From positions 1 to 32,919 of the forward strand of contig LNJC01000017.1 in the NCBI GenBank assembly GCA_001587575.1: a stretch of DNA of 32,919 nucleotides, in the 5' to 3' direction. This stretch comes from Candidatus Methanofastidiosum methylothiophilum. GTDB lineage: Archaea > Methanobacteriota_B > Thermococci > Methanofastidiosales > Methanofastidiosaceae. How positions within the stretch are numbered: the first letter of the stretch is position 1; each line of letters opens with the position of its first letter. Shown piece by piece: positions 2,910-24,409 of the stretch. The notes beneath the pieces were generated by a model. That model worked only from the letters and a program-made list of their open reading frames with translations. It ran no database searches and was not told where the DNA came from. The position numbers and the translations under genes were made by a program.

Positions 2910-3844
2910 TTCATAGTTTTCTACCTCCTTTTCTAAAAGTTCTATGAAGTTCCCCATTGACACTGGTTCGAGCTTTCGCCAGAAAGCTTGTTCTGGTGTT
3001 TCAAGGTTGTCCCAGTCTAGGCTCATATGCGGCCTTACGCAGTTGTACCAGTGGATGAAGTCATTAAACGATTTGAATTTCTCACGCTTTCTTTTGTAAA
3101 GGTCAAACCATTTCTCCACCTTGCCATTGGTCTGCGGATGCGCCCTTCCACATAGGATATGAGTTATGTCATTATCCTTGCAGAAATCCTCGAATGGATG
3201 AGTTGCATTTCCGTTCTTGTCTCTCCTGTTTGCATGAAACTCGCTCCCTCGATCAGTTATGACTTCCCGTATTTTCTTGATGCTAGCATATTTGTCTAAA
3301 GCTTCTTTTAGAAGCTTTACAGAAGTTTCTGCGCTTTGCCTTTCGAATTCTCCGCCAGAAAGGATTTTTCGGCTTGCATCATCTAAAACAACGCATAATG
3401 AGGTTCCTTTTACTCCAGTTGACCAGTCGAGTGAACTGCTGATAGGGGATATGTCCTCTCATACCTTACCCAGGGCCTTTTTCGTACTCTTTTATTCAGA
3501 CAAACTTCTGCCATGCCTTCCTCCAGGAGAATCCGTTGGACTAAATTAACATCAGCCCTAATCCCACGCTTTTTCCTCAGATGCATAGAGATGCCAGAGG
3601 CTGAAAGATCTAGAGTAAGTTTAGCTTGGATAATCTCTGTTCTCAAGGTGACTGGATATATTGCATAAGGCCTTCTTCCAAGCTGCTTGTGCTTGGGTAA
3701 TTCACCAGTTATCTTTGAAAGCCTGACTATCTGCTGTACTCGTCTCTGAGAGATTTTAAACTGCGAGGCAACGACTCTTGTCGGAAGTTTGTACTTTGTT
3801 ACCCTAAGTACAATCGCCTCAAGATCTGCATCCTTAAGCTTCAT
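2901..3844 (-). pseudogene. IS481-family transposase, frameshifted at the first catalytic Asp
   Basis: DDE transposase of the IS. From ATG 3844 the frame reads MKLKDADLEAIVLRV, a helix-turn-helix region (TRVVASQFKISQRRVQQIV) and RPWVRYERTYPLSAVHS, then runs out of frame and stops near 3410. The catalytic core resumes in another frame: LDWSTGVKGTSLCVVLDDAS, TDRGSEF (second Asp), HPQTNGKVEKWF (Glu) and the terminal ENYEAK. The join falls at about 3423-3428, where one missing base (tcgactgg where tcggactgg would read S-D-W) explains it. An ATG at 3937 in the first frame lies outside the element and is not the start. Restored length would be about 314 residues, normal for the family. This copy should be inactive unless the shift is a sequencing error or is bypassed. 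Enzyme in trans from other copies could still move it. Confidence 0.88.
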
Positions 3845-3877
3845 GCCATTTAAGGCAAAAGAACGATTTAAAGCTTG

Positions 3878-3901
3878 GCGAAATATTTGGCAGATAACAC
3901 A
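3878..3901 (-). repeat. IS terminal inverted repeat (transposase 5' side)
   Basis: Read on the minus strand it begins tgtgttatctgcc. It pairs with 2886-2909, with mismatches at positions 12, 13 and 16. Confidence 0.88.
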
Positions 3902-3916
3902 CTGGAATAATTGTTT
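3902..3916. repeat. Target-site duplication, right copy
   Basis: Exact 15-base match to 2871-2885, directly abutting the IS end. Confidence 0.92.
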
Positions 3917-3954
3917 AGCAAATTTATCGTATACCAAATTCCAATCCCATTATT

Positions 3955-5787: not shown

Positions 5788-6203
5788 ATGGCAGATAATA
5801 TGATAGGAAAAATTGATGGTAAAATCCTTGAGGCAATTCTTGAAACAATCCCTATTGAATTTTCAGTTCTTGATGAAGGGGTAAGGTATTGGCTTGGAAT
5901 AAACATGAAACTAGAATATTTAAAAGACCTCAAGCTGCTTTAGGAAAGGATGTTAGACAGTGCCACCCTGAACGAAGTCTTGACAAAGTTGAGCAGATAA
6001 TTGGCGAAATGAAAGAAGGTATACGAGATAAGGCAAGATTTTGGATTGATCTGCCTATTGGGAAAAATGGCGAAAAAGAAAAGGTAATGATTGAATACTA
6101 TGCCTTGAGAGATAAAGAAGGAAATTTTTTGGGATGTCTTGAATCAAGTCAAAACATTGCCTCAATCCAAAAATTAGAAGGGCAGAAAAGACTACTCGAT
6201 TAA
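5788..6203 (+). pseudogene. PAS-domain protein (DUF438/PAS_10-like), frameshifted
   Basis: Starting at ATG 5788 the first frame gives MADNMIGKIDGKILEAILETIPIEFSVLDEGVRYW and then runs into a stop. A second frame continues exactly where the family does: NKHETRIFKRPQAALGKDVRQCHPERS, then ARFWIDLPIG, IEYYALRDKEG and FLGCLESSQNI. Removing the five bases cttgg at 5893-5897, a near copy of the preceding attgg, restores one protein of 136 residues. DUF438-type PAS modules normally read VLDENDxVRYWNKHE here, so residues also seem to be missing before VRYW. The domain would be a sensory or ligand-binding partner of the cupin and polyferredoxin upstream. It could be a recent pseudogene, a slipped sequence read, or two independent short products. 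Confidence 0.78.
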
Positions 6204-14067: not shown

Positions 14068-14949
14068 TTATTTTCTTTCCCACTTTTCTTTGTATTCTTT
14101 GAATATTGGATTTTTAGTATATTGGTATAATGAATCTAATTGGGCAACATGCATTTCATGGTAGTGATCATTTGCTATATTCCCCATTGCATCGTAGTAA
14201 CTTTTTTTGTTTCCGGCTTCGTATTCTGGTAAATAATGTTCAAGAGAAATTAGACCTTCAAGATAAAGCCTCTCTGCTTTCTTATCAGTTGAAATAAGAT
14301 AATACTCTCTCAAACGAACAATCACTGTTATAAATCCATTAAGAACATAGGGGGGAATTTCTTTTGCATACTCTGGGTACCACACATAATACTTTCCTTC
14401 GTCTTCTCTAATGATCCTGAGCCCCCCATCCTTAACCTCAATTTCAAAAGCATTAAGGCCTAGGCCAATCATTTGTTTGTATTTTTCGTCCTTAGAATAT
14501 AAATGTGCAAATGAAAGGGCTTTTATTATTGTTGCTTGATTTAGGGATCCAGTCCACCCTTCTTTAAGGTCGTAGGGTGGCCAAGGATAATCGTATGTCC
14601 AAACTACAAAAGTTCCATTACCCCTATACTCGGCATTCTCCATAAGCCAGTCTGCTAGATATAATCCTCTATTTAGATAAGATTCGTTCCCAGTATCATG
14701 ATATCGATAAAAAGCCTCTAAAGATTTCATGGCAACATTGTGTGGCGCAATCTGGTATCCAAGCTCAACACCATCAATAGTCCCATAGTAAGTAAGGGGT
14801 ATATCAGATTCATCTATTGAATACTTTTTTGGCGGAATAATACTATTTTCTTTAACGCTATAATTTTTCTCATTCGTTTGATTTGGGGTAAATTGTACAC
14901 ATGCCGAAGAAATTATGATTAGTAATAAAAAAAATCCTATTTTTCTCAT
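14068..14949 (-). CDS. Lipoprotein with D-glucuronyl C5-epimerase-like C-terminal domain
   Basis: 293 residues. A signal peptide with lipobox ISSAC (Cys17) is followed by a linker and an (alpha/alpha) barrel-type domain. It carries the C5-epimerase C-terminal pattern: GWTGSLNQATIIKALSFAHLY, PPYVLNGFITVIVRL and the closing YHEMHVAQLDSLYQYTKNPIFKEYKEKW. In animals and bacteria this domain converts glucuronate to iduronate in polysaccharides. An outward-facing membrane-anchored version in an archaeon could act on surface or environmental glycans, which is inference. It converges on atwA with 3 bp between stops and is divergent from the methyltransferase at 15049. Confidence 0.82.
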   Translation of the reverse strand: MRKIGFFLLLIIISSACVQFTPNQTNEKNYSVKENSIIPPKKYSIDESDIPLTYYGTIDGVELGYQIAPHNVAMKSLEAFYRYHDTGNESYLNRGLYLADWLMENAEYRGNGTFVVWTYDYPWPPYDLKEGWTGSLNQATIIKALSFAHLYSKDEKYKQMIGLGLNAFEIEVKDGGLRIIREDEGKYYVWYPEYAKEIPPYVLNGFITVIVRLREYYLISTDKKAERLYLEGLISLEHYLPEYEAGNKKSYYDAMGNIANDHYHEMHVAQLDSLYQYTKNPIFKEYKEKWERK

Positions 14950-17971: not shown

Positions 17972-18832
17972 TCAACGCATTTTTGAGTCAATAAAAGTTT
18001 GTATTTGATTTGATTCTCTTTCTCTAAAGCATACTGGCTCTTTGTTATCTTTGTATGGTTCAATATTTTCTTCAAATGTATTTTTGTCATTAATATAAAA
18101 GATACCAAGAGGAAGTTTTTCAGTTTCGATAGATCTTTTAAATGCTTCAATTCTGTTATAGGGGTCATGTTTATCTTCTAGATAATAAGTATTCTTTTTG
18201 AACCATTCAAAGTTATTTATCTTATTAAAAGACGGGCACGGCTGGAATATATCTACTATTGCATATCCCTTATGATTTATTGCTTTCTTTAATATTTCTT
18301 TAGTCTGTTCAATATCGCCAACAAATGCACGAGCTACAAAGGAAGCATTTAGAGATATAGCAACGGCAATCGGATTGAAAGGTTCAAGTATAACGCCATC
18401 AACTTGTAAAGTAGTCTTAACCCCTAACATAGTAGTTGGCGAGGCCTGCCCTTTTGTTAGTCCGTAGACCATGTTATTGTGAATTATATTTGTAATATTT
18501 GGATTTCTCCTTATCGCATGAAGGATGTGGTTTCCACCTTCTCCATACATATCTCCATCTCCTCCTTCAGCAATCACTGTAAGATTTGGATTAACGGCCT
18601 TTACTGCAGTTGCTATAGGTATAGCTCTACCATGCAAAGTATGAAAAGTATTATTTTTAAAATAATGGGGCGTTTTAGCCGATTGGCCAATTCCTGAAAT
18701 AACTGCAAGATTTTCAGGTTTTATTTGAAGTTCTGCAAATGTTTCTTTAAGAACTCTAAGTAATGTAAAATTTCCACATCCGGGGCACCACGAAATTTCA
18801 ACATTCGGCAAATCAAAATCCTTAGCTTCCAT
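17972..18832 (-). CDS. 2-oxoacid:ferredoxin oxidoreductase, beta subunit (TPP-binding)
   Basis: 286 residues, the catalytic TPP subunit of a two-subunit 2-oxoacid:ferredoxin oxidoreductase. Visible: WCPGCGN (Cys16 and Cys19 of the 4Fe-4S site), [27 protein letters not shown] and the TPP/Mg motif [12 protein letters not shown], then [16 protein letters not shown]. Further cysteines occur at FQPCPSF and EPVCFRE. It oxidatively decarboxylates a 2-oxoacid and reduces ferredoxin, or runs in the CoA-carboxylating direction. The start is 1 bp after the stop of the alpha subunit gene. No separate delta ferredoxin subunit is present. Confidence 0.9.
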
Positions 18833-18833
18833 A

Positions 18834-20537
18834 TTATTCCTCCAATACTTCTTTTATCTTAGATACAACTTCTTCAACAGAAAAAGGTCTGCCATTGTAT
18901 TTTAAGATCTTATACTTAATATCAAAACCTGTTTCTCTTTTTATAAGATTTGAAAATTGTCCAGAAGCATTATTCTCTATTGCAATGACTTTTTGTGAGT
19001 TAATTAAATATCCCATCATCTCTCTAGGCAACGGATAAACTTGTTTGAAGTACAAGAATCCCAATCTAGGTTCTTTCAATTGTTTTAAAGCTTCTTCTAC
19101 AATATTCCTCGTTGAACCCCACCCTATTAAAAGAAATTTATAAGCCTTGGCTCCGAGTAATTCTGGGTAAATCACTTCATTTTTAAGTTGATTTAGTTTT
19201 TCGTTTAGTCTTTTCTCCACCATCTTTTTTCTTAAGATAGCATTTTCAGTTGTATGGCCCGTTTCATCGTGCTCATTTCCAGTCTGTATTATTAATCCTT
19301 CTCCAAATCCCGGTATTCCCCTAGGGGAAATTCCAGTCTTAGAAAACTGATATCTTTGATAATCTTTTTCAGTTTTTATTACATATCTTTTTATCGGGTA
19401 TTTATTATGATCTAAGGAAGGAATATTATATTTACAGTCTAATAGATATTGATCTGTAAGTATAAATACAGGTATCTGGAACTTATCTGCCATAGAAAAT
19501 GCATATTTTGATAGGTAAAAACAATCTTCTATACTACCGGGGGACAATATTAACCGTGCGAAATCGCCGTGGCCGGAATATAAAGAGAGTTCAAGATCTC
19601 CTTGTTCAGTCCTTGTTGGAAGTCCAGTAGCAGGACCAGGCCTTTGTCCGATATGGATAACAACCGGAGTTTCTGCCATGCCTGCTAGACTAACTCCTTC
19701 TTCCATTAGGGCAAATCCTCCACCTGAAGTTGTAGTCATACCTCTGCCACCAGCATACCAGGATCCTATTGCCATGTTAATTGCGCTTATTTCATCTTCA
19801 GATTGTTCCGCAATAATACCAAATTCTTTGGAATATTTGGACATAAAAGAGAGAACGCCTGTTGCAGGTGACATTGGGTAACCAGAGATAAAGTTGCACC
19901 CCCCTGCCAAAGCTCCAAGTGCAACTGCATCTTTACCTGACATTAATATATCTTTACCCAAATCTCTGGATAGTTCATCACTTTTCTTTGCTTTTATATT
20001 AACTCCGGATTCAATTATCTTATTTGCCAATTCGTACCCTTGACTTATAGCCTCAAGATTCTTTTTTAATATCTCTTCTCCTTTTTTATCAAAGTATTTT
20101 AAGATAAAATTTCTTAAATCATATTCTGAAACATTAAGCAATCTACAAATAACTCCCGCAGTTACGGTATTGGCATAGATTCCACTTCCTATTTTTTTAG
20201 CAGTTTTTGATAGTGGAAGATCTATAACATTTTGGACCTCACCTATTACTTCTTTATCCCCAAAAATTAAGGTAGAATCTGATATCCTATCCTTCAAATG
20301 GCTAATAGATTTATTGCTTAAAGCAAATAATAAATCAATTCTATCAACATAAGCTCTAACGGGTTTTGGGGATATTCTTATTTCTGTAGAATTTATTCCT
20401 CCTCTCACCCTGGACATGTATTCTCTTGCAGAGAATACATTATACCTTGATATTTTTAGTATTTTAGTTAAAATATCTTCAATAGTTTCTATACCTTGTC
20501 CTGCTTCACCACAAAGAACAATAGAGAAATCTTCCAT
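18834..20537 (-). CDS. 2-oxoacid:ferredoxin oxidoreductase, fused gamma-alpha subunit
   Basis: 567 residues. The N-terminal 190 residues are the gamma-type domain ([29 protein letters not shown]). The remainder is the alpha subunit, with the YPMSPATG motif (the YPITPST-type signature), [16 protein letters not shown] and [20 protein letters not shown]. This fused architecture is that of KorA-like subunits in Sulfolobus and many archaea. The substrate could be 2-oxoglutarate, pyruvate or others and cannot be fixed by eye. The ATG at 20537 follows GAGGTAA. With the beta gene it forms a two-gene operon. Confidence 0.9.
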
Positions 20538-20603
20538 ACAATTACCTCAATTTTATTGGAATATATACAAAGTTATTTTTAGTATCTAACTTACATACTT
20601 TTG

Positions 20604-20615
20604 AATATTTATAAG
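20604..20615 (-). promoter_or_regulatory. TATA box of the oxidoreductase operon
   Basis: Minus-strand cttataaatatt gives a predicted transcript start near 20585 and a leader of about 50 bases with GAGGTAA before the ATG. A second weaker TATA-like tttgtatatatt is nearer, at about 20561-20572. Confidence 0.45.
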
Positions 20616-20640
20616 TTTTCTTGGATTTTAGTAATATGCC

Positions 20641-21198
20641 TTAATCATGGTACTTATTCAAATAAATAATTCTATCAATGCCTAATCTTTCAGGTCTTTC
20701 TTTCTCTACTTCCTTCTGACTTTCAGTCATAAGTGGATTCATCTCAGAAGAGTGTTTTCCCACTATGACAAGTGTAATAACATTCATCTCTTCTGGTATT
20801 CCCAAAATCTCTCTAGTTTTTTTAGGACTATATCCTGCTATAGGATGTGCTACTAATCCCATTTCAGTTGCCCTAAGAATAATAAAGGCAGTTGCCATTC
20901 CCGTATCAAATAAGTAATACTCCCTATCTCTTATCAGGCAATCATTTTCTTTCTTAGAAAATACAACTATTATCATTGATGCAGCCTTTGCCCATTCATT
21001 ACCAGTTGAAAGAGCGGAATGCATATTTTTTAGAACTTCTGGGTCTGTTACAAAAATGTATCTCCAAGGTTGATTGTTAAAACAAGAAGGGGATAATCTT
21101 GCGCTTTCTGCTAATGAATTAATAATTCCTGGAGTTATCTCTACGTATTCTAGGGATCTATATGCCCGTCTTTTGTATATAGCTTCCTTAACTTCCAT
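20641..21198 (-). CDS. Nitroreductase-family FMN oxidoreductase
   Basis: 185 residues. Flavin-binding motifs of the small nitroreductases are present: KRRAYRSLEYVEITPG (YKRRSxR-type phosphate contact), SARLSPSCFNNQPWRYIFV, YYLFDTGMATAFIILRATEMGLVAHPIAGY and the closing ERLGIDRIIYLNK. It is a soluble NAD(P)H- or F420-type flavin reductase with unknown substrate. A strong GGAGGT lies 4 bases before the ATG. It is monocistronic, between the oxidoreductase operon and acetolactate decarboxylase, all on the minus strand. Confidence 0.88.
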   Translation of the reverse strand: MEVKEAIYKRRAYRSLEYVEITPGIINSLAESARLSPSCFNNQPWRYIFVTDPEVLKNMHSALSTGNEWAKAASMIIVVFSKKENDCLIRDREYYLFDTGMATAFIILRATEMGLVAHPIAGYSPKKTREILGIPEEMNVITLVIVGKHSSEMNPLMTESQKEVEKERPERLGIDRIIYLNKYHD

Positions 21199-21297: not shown

Positions 21298-22127
21298 TCA
21301 CTTTCCTTTTTCTACAATACTAATGTCTTGACCTCTAACCTTATTAGAATTTAATTTGTAGAACTCTTCACTATCTGGAGGCATCATAAAAAATTGATAG
21401 GTATAGTCTATATGTACTTTTTGATTCTGAATCCTTAAATCAAGAACATGCCCCCCAGCCTTGTTATCCTCTGTCAAAAAATGAAAATGATACCCGGGCA
21501 CATTCATATCTCCTACGTATTCAGGTATTCTAAATCCTACTAGAGTTCCACTAATATTATTAAATTCAAAAATACTCTGATCTTCTATAGCTTTAACTAG
21601 GGGGATGTAAGGCTTTTTTTGTATTGGCACACTTCTAGTTTTAATATAGTCAAACTTACCTTCAATAATTATGAGATAAAAAATATTTTTTGTATGAATG
21701 CTCTCATCAATGTATTCTGTGTATTGCTTGTAGTCAAGAGGCCCGTTTATTTCGATTGTTTTATCAGTTTCAAAAAATGAAACTACGGCAAAGGGCGTTT
21801 TCTGATTATTCTCAATTGGGTATGCAAATCCATCTGACTTTATTTGATAGAATTTGCCATTTACTTGTATCATTTCCCCATCTAACGCATTAACAGTGCC
21901 AAGTCCATAGTTTCCGTACTTACTAAGTTCTTGGAAAGTCATATTTCCATCATAAATTCCTTCCATTAGAGCTTCAATTGTCGAATATTGGAATAAAATG
22001 TCTTTATTTTCTAAAACACTTCTTTATTTTCTAAAACACTATTATATTCTTGATTAACACAACATAAAGTTAAGACTATAAAAATAAATAACAAGATTAA
22101 TATTAATTTAAATTTTTTATTTCCCAT
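21298..22127 (-). pseudogene. Alpha-acetolactate decarboxylase, lipoprotein form, frameshifted by a 20-bp tandem duplication
   Basis: The enzyme domain (21298-21966, MEGIYDGNMTFQELSKYGNYGLGTVNALDGE onward) matches acetolactate decarboxylase, including the zinc-binding GYHFHFLTEDNKAGGHVLD. It converts acetolactate to acetoin. The true start is the ATG at 22127, after GAGG with 5-base spacing, which encodes a signal peptide and lipobox (LILILLFIFIVLTLCCVNQ). That frame ends at a stop created where tctttattttctaaaacact (plus strand) is exactly doubled at 22001-22040. With one copy removed the frame runs on as NSVLENKDILFQYSTIEALMEGIYDG, giving a normal 269-residue lipoprotein. As it stands, only an N-terminally shortened form from ATG 21966 could be made. 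It may be a pseudogene, a reversible slippage switch or an assembly error. Confidence 0.85.
22001..22040. repeat. Perfect 2 x 20-bp tandem duplication inside the acetolactate decarboxylase gene
   Basis: 22001-22020 and 22021-22040 are identical (tctttattttctaaaacact). Twenty is not a multiple of three, so the second copy shifts the frame between the lipoprotein signal and the enzyme domain. Confidence 0.95.
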
Positions 22128-22150: not shown

Positions 22151-22942
22151 TTATAATATTTTTGAGATAAAAGCTTGAGTTCTTGGATTTTGAGGATTTT
22201 CGAAGAGCTCTTTTGGTTCATTCTCTTCGACTATATACCCTTCATCCATGAAAATAACTCTATCTGCGACTTCTTTTGCAAATCCCATTTCATGAGTTAC
22301 AACTATCATCGTCATTCCCATCTTTGCAAGTTCTTTCATAGTTTCAAGGACGCCCTTGACAAGTTCTGGATCTAAAGCAGATGTTACTTCGTCAAATAGC
22401 ATAACATCAGGATTCATAGCAAGAGCCCTTGCTATAGCAACTCTTTGTTGTTGTCCTCCTGAAAGTTCATGTGGATATGAATTATATTTGTCTCCAAGTC
22501 CTACTTTTTTAAGTAATTCCATTGCTTCCTGTTTTGCAGTATCTATAGAAACCTTCTTCACTTTAATTGGCGAAAGAGTCACATTATCAATTACCCTCAT
22601 ATGGGGAAACAGATTAAACTGTTGGAATACCATACCTACTTTTGTTCTGAGTTTGTGTATATCCATGTCTTGTGAGTAAATATTTGTTCCCTCTAGAATA
22701 ATTTCTCCTTCGTCTATTTTCTCTAATCTGTTAATACATCGAATCAAAGTACTTTTACCAGAACCAGAAGGTCCAAGAACAACTAATACTTCCCCTTTTT
22801 TAATTTCAAGATTAATATCTTTTAAAACGACTAAGTCTCCAAAAGATTTTTTGACATGAGTCATTTTGATCATGACATTTCCATTCGAGGTGTTTTCCAA
22901 TTTTTTTGATTTCTGTCTTTTAACAAGATTATTTTTAATCAT
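22151..22942 (-). CDS. Polar amino acid ABC transporter, ATP-binding protein (GlnQ/HisP type)
   Basis: 263 residues. Walker [10 protein letters not shown] (from about 57), Q-loop [11 protein letters not shown], signature LSGGQQQR, Walker [14 protein letters not shown] and H-loop VVTHEM are all intact, with the FQQFNLFPH motif typical of the PAAT family. Residues 1-23 are a basic extension not usual in GlnQ, so the internal ATG at 22873 ([12 protein letters not shown]) is an alternative start. The ATG at 22942 is supported by GGTGG 7 bases upstream and overlaps the permease end by 8 bp. It is the last gene of the operon. Confidence 0.92.
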
Positions 22943-23609
22943 GGATTTCCCACCTCTTTTCAATATAATTAACTGCTCTTGAGAGGGGTATAGTTATGCA
23001 TAGATATATTAATCCAACACCTAAGAGAGGAGTCCAAGCATCATAAGTTCTAGAGTATACTATCATTCCTCTTCTTAAAAGTTCAGAAATCGCAATTACT
23101 GATACTAGTGATGAATCTTTTAATAAAGCAATAAATTCATTCCCTAAAGCAGGGAGGATATTCCTAGTTGCTTGGGGCAAAATAACATACCTCATAGTTT
23201 GCATATAGTTTAGTCCAAGAGACATTGAAGCTTCAGTTTGTCCCTTTTTAATTGATTTAATTCCAGCTTTGAAAATTTCTGCAATATACGCTCCACTGTT
23301 AATTGACAAAGCGAGAATACCTGAAGTAAATTGATTTAGGTTTAAACCTAAGGAAGGCAAACCATAGTATACAATCATTATTTGGACCAAAAGTGGTGTT
23401 CCTCTAATGACTTCAACGTATAGAGTAGAGGGGATGTGAAAAATCTTGTAACGAGAGATTCTTGCCATACCCATAAATAATCCAATTAATGTTCCTATGG
23501 CTACAGAAAAAGCAGTCAATTGTATAGTTATTGACGCCCCTCTTAGTAATTCTGGGAGTATTCTCACGAATAAATCAAATTGAAATCCTAGTCCTACCAC
23601 TTTGGTCAC
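22935..23609 (-). CDS. Polar amino acid ABC transporter, permease (HisM/GlnP type)
   Basis: 224 residues with about five TM helices. It shows the PAAT permease start ([30 protein letters not shown]) and the EAA loop [43 protein letters not shown], which docks to the ATPase. A single permease suggests a homodimer. The start is GTG at 23609 or GTG at 23600; the latter has GGTG 6 bases upstream. It lies between the binding protein and the ATPase genes. Confidence 0.92.
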
Positions 23610-23620
23610 CTTTTGTTTTT

Positions 23621-24409
23621 TTATTTATCTGGATTCCAGTTTACTATATATTCATCATAGATTTGGTCGTAAGTTCCATTTTCTTTTAATTTTTTCAATG
23701 CTGCATTTATCCTTTGAAGTAGTAATTCATTGTCTTTTGGAACTGCTATACCATAATCTTCTTCTGTAAGTTTTGTCTGAACGATTTTATAGCTTCCAGG
23801 TTCACTGTCTACAATTGGCTTTGATACAGGGTAATCATTTATTACTGCATCGACGTTTCCATTTTTCATATCTAAGAAAGCTGTTGGTGCATGAGCGTAT
23901 CTTTTAATATATTTTTCTTCTATTCCTAGATCGTCAGTTACATAAAAGTCGCTTGTAGTTCCTAGTTGTACTGCAACGATTTTTCCTTTAAGTTCATCTA
24001 CAGTTGTAATAGTGCTTCCTACAGGAACAGCTAAACACAATTCTGATTTAAAGTAAGAGTCTGAGAAATTAATTGATTTCTTTCTTTCTTCTGTTATTGT
24101 CATTGCTGACATTGCAATATCAAACTTTCCTGCATTTAAGGAAGCAATGATAGATGCAAAGTCTGTATCTACAAATTTAGCTTTTAATCCTAGTTCCTTG
24201 GCAATGGCTTCACCCAAAGCAATGTCGAAACCGTAGAAACTGTCATCAGCTTTTCTTATTTCAAATGGGGGAAAGAAAGCTTCAGTACCAATAGTTAGAT
24301 ATCCATCTTCGACTAGTTTTCTAGTCTTTGGTCCCGTAGCACATCCACTCGATGCAACTAAGGCTAATATCAATAGTAATACAACGCTTATTTGTCCTAT
24401 TCTTTTCAT
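23621..24409 (-). CDS. Amino acid ABC transporter substrate-binding lipoprotein (SBP family 3)
   Basis: 262 residues. Signal peptide and lipobox VASSGC (Cys23), then the periplasmic-type amino acid-binding domain: GYLTIGTEAFFPPFEIRKADDSFYGFDIALGEAIAKELG, FDIAMSAMTITEERKKSINFSDSYF and LKGKIVAVQLGTTSDFY. The ligand is probably a polar amino acid. It is anchored on the outer face of the membrane to serve the permease and ATPase encoded downstream. GGAGGT lies 7 bases before the ATG. Confidence 0.93.
   Translation of the reverse strand: MKRIGQISVVLLLILALVASSGCATGPKTRKLVEDGYLTIGTEAFFPPFEIRKADDSFYGFDIALGEAIAKELGLKAKFVDTDFASIIASLNAGKFDIAMSAMTITEERKKSINFSDSYFKSELCLAVPVGSTITTVDELKGKIVAVQLGTTSDFYVTDDLGIEEKYIKRYAHAPTAFLDMKNGNVDAVINDYPVSKPIVDSEPGSYKIVQTKLTEEDYGIAVPKDNELLLQRINAALKKLKENGTYDQIYDEYIVNWNPDK

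Follow-up and report, generated by a model that had tools for sequence, protein, structure and literature searches.

A frame-breaking 20-bp tandem duplication in the acetolactate decarboxylase gene of a Candidatus Methanofastidiosum genome, probably a private loss-of-function allele

The alpha-acetolactate decarboxylase (ALDC) structure 4BT2, which we take to be the Brevibacillus brevis enzyme, served as the reference for the protein described here. Among archaea, Ca. Nitrosotalea devanaterra has an ALDC that was proposed to aid pH homeostasis through proton consumption (PMC4836417). The detection of repeat-based switches rests on hypermutable repeat numbers that are not expected from genome composition, as set out in a review of phase variation (PMC11868660). 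In the fission yeast S. pombe, reversible, microhomology-mediated tandem duplications break the ssp1 gene (PMC13207564). The locus compared with these systems lies in a window of 32,919 nucleotides, the whole stretch of DNA that was analysed, from a MAG of 1.56 Mb in 61 contigs. The nearest named relatives of this genome are Candidatus Methanofastidiosum, and nine other genomes of the genus (G001 to G009) were available for comparison.

The duplication and the frames it separates

The minus-strand ALDC gene, read from 22127 to 21298, holds two identical head-to-tail copies of TCTTTATTTTCTAAAACACT, at 22001-22020 and 22021-22040. The features of the gene are:

22001..22040, minus strand: exact 2 x 20-bp tandem duplication, frame-shifting; coding-strand unit AGTGTTTTAGAAAATAAAGA, single copy in 5/5 ALDC-bearing congeners
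22011..22127, minus strand: truncated leader ORF, 38 codons plus TAG; signal peptide with a lipobox-like Cys (VLTLCC), TGAGG Shine-Dalgarno-like motif 5' of the ATG
21298..22023, minus strand: ALDC frame, 241 open codons plus stop; PF03306 E 4.8e-80, phmmer against 4BT2 2e-61
21298..21966, minus strand: the sole remaining ATG/GTG/TTG-initiated enzyme ORF, 222 aa; starts inside the domain, no clear Shine-Dalgarno motif

The leader frame (22127-22011) translates as MGNKKFKLILILLFIFIVLTLCCVNQEYNSVLENKEVF and then meets the TAG. In the enzyme frame, the open stretch follows a TAA immediately upstream of 22023, runs to 21298 and contains no ATG, GTG or TTG before the ATG at 21966. Its match to the PF03306 profile (268 bits) covers positions 1-215 of 219, and the phmmer alignment with 4BT2 spans residues 4-226. 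The HFHF, GGHVL, LDGEM and TRSVP motifs, whose residues presumably have metal-site or active-site roles, align with 4BT2; the alignment stops short of the C-terminal Glu. When one copy of the repeat was removed in silico, a continuous 269-aa frame for a putative lipoprotein was obtained. The initial annotation had described an ALDC gene in which an exact 20-bp duplication separates leader from enzyme and in which one copy would give 269 continuous residues, and each of these points was reproduced.

The frame was modelled with 0 to 5 copies of the unit. It was open with n=1 only; 0, 2, 3, 4 and 5 copies were all off, and two or more copies all ended at the same TAG. At lag 20 the match breaks off after exactly two units (extension 0), and neither flank, aaaatg nor attata, matches an end of the unit; thus, the borders of the duplicated unit have no microhomology. 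Furthermore, no DNA hairpin was found at the repeat (z 0.36).

Exact tandems of period at least 13 were sought in 1.19 Mb of the genome, sampled as stretches. Three were found, the 20-bp repeat at 22001-22040 and two 15-bp repeats that are in frame, leaving the former as the sole out-of-frame example in the sampled sequence. Congener sequence totalling 563 kb contained none, and two order-3 Markov simulations of 1.18 Mb each produced 0 and 1, the single one being of 13 bp. Since simulations and congeners are nearly devoid of such tandems, the repeat records a duplication event, real or assembly-made, and not a coincidence. An IMG/VR search for the exact one-copy and two-copy junctions gave no match. 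A search of the genus for a stretch resembling the one-copy form, with up to 3 mismatches, found this genome only, the relatives being too divergent.

An assembly-made event would mean that contig pieces overlapping by 20 bp were joined unmerged, so that the overlap was written twice, and that the gene in the organism itself is intact, with a single copy. Perfect identity of the copies together with zero border microhomology is what an unmerged overlap yields, and the intact, constrained remainder of the gene and the single copy in all ALDC-bearing relatives are in keeping with it. However, an assembler that made such joins systematically should leave a recurrent signature, and no other period-20 exact tandem, nor any other out-of-frame one of at least 13 bp, was present in the 1.19 Mb sampled. 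Frameshift-like breaks elsewhere in the assembly are also few, 1 vs 303 full-length matches. This low count speaks against a poor consensus, although it is compatible with a single bad join, and an artefact is considered possible but rather unlikely. The other frameshift-like break lies at about 3081 of stretch L020, relative to congener G007.

Single-copy relatives and a dispensable gene

The ALDC gene stands between conserved neighbours:

22151..24409, minus strand: polar amino-acid type ABC transporter, conserved upstream; same order in G006, G002 and G008
23621-24409, minus strand: ABC solute-binding protein, upstream of ALDC
22935-23609, minus strand: ABC permease, upstream of ALDC
22151-22963, minus strand: ABC ATPase, upstream of ALDC
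20641-21198, minus strand: nitroreductase, conserved downstream neighbour, in block 17972..21198
18834-20537 and 17972-18832, minus strand: 2-oxoacid:ferredoxin oxidoreductase subunits, conserved downstream, in the same block

The stretches from G002 and G008 share the order zinc-ribbon membrane protein, solute-binding protein, permease, ATPase, ALDC, nitroreductase and 2-oxoacid:ferredoxin oxidoreductase. Elsewhere in the window, overlapping ORFs occupy 3259-3937, the minus-strand one resembling by eye a fragment of a helix-turn-helix transposase (its sole Pfam match, Bot1p, is marginal). A short PAS-domain ORF at 5889-6203 (PF13596) has a TTG start inside the domain and appears to be the remnant of a longer protein, and a putative lipoprotein at 14068-14949 (ISSACVQ) carries a D-glucuronyl C5-epimerase C-terminal domain (PF06662).

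ALDC is present in five of the nine congeners (G001, G002, G005, G008, G009), each carrying the homologous stretch once (as AACAACAATTTAGAAAATAAAGATATAC in G008 and as AGCAGCAATTTAGAAAATAAAGACATATTG in G009, for instance) within an unbroken leader-enzyme frame; the G009 sequence ends at a contig end. No repeat occurs at the equivalent position in any of the five, which indicates a derived duplication restricted to this genome. The joined leader-enzyme form that the initial annotation had reconstructed is thereby the ancestral one. The remaining four congeners (G003, G004, G006, G007) lack ALDC. In G006 the nitroreductase comes straight after the ABC ATPase, and G003, G004 and G007 (99, 87 and 87% complete) have neither ALDC nor a close match to the ATPase. 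Because four of nine congeners do without the gene, one of them by clean absence between conserved flanks, ALDC is dispensable. At the G006 locus (L127 2290-2480), the short intergenic stretch between transporter and nitroreductase contains no obvious remnant. A second ALDC, looked for as possible compensation, was not found elsewhere in the MAG, so the gene is single.

Apart from the duplication, the enzyme frame has no stops or frameshifts and retains the HFHF...GGH metal-site motif. The dN/dS was about 0.11 vs G008 and 0.20 vs G005, as against 0.07-0.17 for pairs of intact genes, with dS saturated in several comparisons. At positions invariant in four relatives the gene differs at 13/130; the same leave-one-out count gave 7/124 for G008 and 27/144 for G005. 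With the frame intact elsewhere, its motifs kept and dN/dS low, the lesion is either recent or not real, and the absence of other lesions is also expected of an artefact.

The most likely explanation, to which we assign a probability of roughly 0.6, is that a recent duplication private to this genome created a loss-of-function allele of a dispensable, apparently exported ALDC; an assembly error is less likely and a maintained switch is unsupported. The 20-bp duplication would have arisen just after the signal peptide, in this genome only, and would shift the frame so that the product of the assembled allele is a leader peptide of 38 residues in place of the normal enzyme. It is known from one consensus MAG, the sole genome available for its species, and we infer that the cells truly carry it and do not make the enzyme. 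If the repeat contracted, as may happen at some low rate, the gene would be intact again. The two-copy allele can fairly be called a "revertible null", since one copy could still be lost and the reading frame thereby repaired. The footprint of an excised transposon, a leftover target-site duplication, was also considered and rejected; 20 bp is longer than usual for such a duplication, and the idea found no support. The two fallback readings of the initial annotation, a fresh null allele or an assembly artefact, are both supported. A private broken allele has little importance beyond annotation, where gene callers will report a misleading short "cytosolic" ALDC of 222 aa from 21966.

Start codon, leader and export

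The two-copy DNA might still yield a cytosolic enzyme, by a restart at the ATG at 21966 or from an unusual start codon. The leader stop (22011) and this ATG are less than 50 bases apart, and the enzyme frame is under constraint. However, the Pfam domain starts upstream of the ATG, at LFQYST, and a protein begun there drops LFQYSTIEAL, the first ~10 Pfam positions. In the structure model (mean pLDDT 80, with only 54-58 for the first 20 residues) it would lose the first predicted strand, at 7-9, and most of the first helix, at 13-17. Moreover, the ATG at 21966 lacks a Shine-Dalgarno-like motif, unlike the leader ATG, whose TGAGG is spaced as in other genes of the window, and inspection by eye of the overlap between the frames showed no slippery site. 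The leader is present in every relative whose sequence includes the 5' end and none starts at 21966, so the suggestion that this ATG might be a genuine start was not upheld. Overall, residual production of the enzyme appears improbable, and loss of function is the preferred reading.

A Cys column in the leader is conserved by eye, with VLTLCC here and SLGC, TLGC, TLCC and LACC in congeners. A hydrophobic segment also precedes the ALDC domain in more distant members of the order (G015, G017, G019). From these sequences, a hydrophobic leader of the export type precedes ALDC across the order and is not peculiar to this genome, and export is probably an old feature of the lineage to which the duplication is a new addition. 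The initial annotation had considered a surface-anchored archaeal ALDC noteworthy; an exported form is indeed likely by homology, but it is order-wide and not special to this organism. The ALDC of B. brevis is also exported. In Methanofastidiosum and its relatives, an apparently exported, membrane-anchored ALDC lies beside an amino-acid ABC transporter and is repeatedly absent. A literature search for ALDC in Methanofastidiosum gave one paper in which both words occur, and no other. Acetolactate synthase is encoded in 10/10 genus genomes, so the cells presumably contain acetolactate as an intermediate of branched-chain amino acid synthesis; the substrate of an exported ALDC would be acetolactate on the outer side of the membrane. 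An additional acetolactate-synthase-like gene (TIGR00118, ~400-437 bits) occurs in eight congeners, with fragments of it in G003; it was not found in this MAG, which may reflect incompleteness.

Comparison with reversible switches and other known systems

The initial annotation had suggested that the repeat could be an ON/OFF switch. In the version weighed here, two copies are OFF and one is ON, and the states alternate by slippage or recombination and by re-duplication, as in the ssp1 alleles. Loss of a unit from the perfect 20-bp direct repeat is possible and restores the 269-aa frame, and fission yeast provides a precedent for reversible gene-breaking duplications (PMC13207564). Repeat-based switches, however, depend on repeat numbers that are hypermutable and exceed expectation (PMC11868660). 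Here there are two copies, n=1 alone is ON, the congeners carry no repeat at the site, the sampled genome has no similar tandem elsewhere, and no border microhomology is available to drive re-duplication. A switch that counts repeats is excluded because only one copy opens the frame and all higher counts stop at the same TAG; adding units never reopens the frame, and a gene in the ON state offers no repeat for slippage. The assumption that the repeat is easily gained or lost by slippage holds for loss, from two copies to one, but not for gain from a single copy without flanking homology. Consequently the switch proposal was abandoned as very improbable. Equally improbable is its population form, a reversible ON/OFF allele of an exported metabolic enzyme kept at intermediate frequency in a methanogenic archaeon.

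The protein resembles 4BT2 in that the whole domain aligns, with the HxH...GGH metal-site motif and the LDGEM and R-[ST]-VP segments; it differs in being an archaeal domain that belongs behind a lipoprotein-like leader, which in the assembly is out of frame. Like contingency loci (simple-sequence-repeat phase variation), the gene has its frame set by a tandem repeat within its 5' part. In contrast to such loci, the repeat has two copies only, the ON state is repeat-free, every count except 1 is OFF, so that copy number does not alternate between frames, and the tract is neither conserved nor variable in related genomes. With S. pombe ssp1 the allele shares a short frame-breaking tandem duplication that is reversible in principle by losing one copy, but border microhomology is absent and, in an assembled sequence only, reversion was not observed. 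Finally, the private lesion, dispensable gene and intact relatives are those of an ordinary frameshift null allele, a young pseudogene, from which the present allele differs only in that precise reversion is possible.
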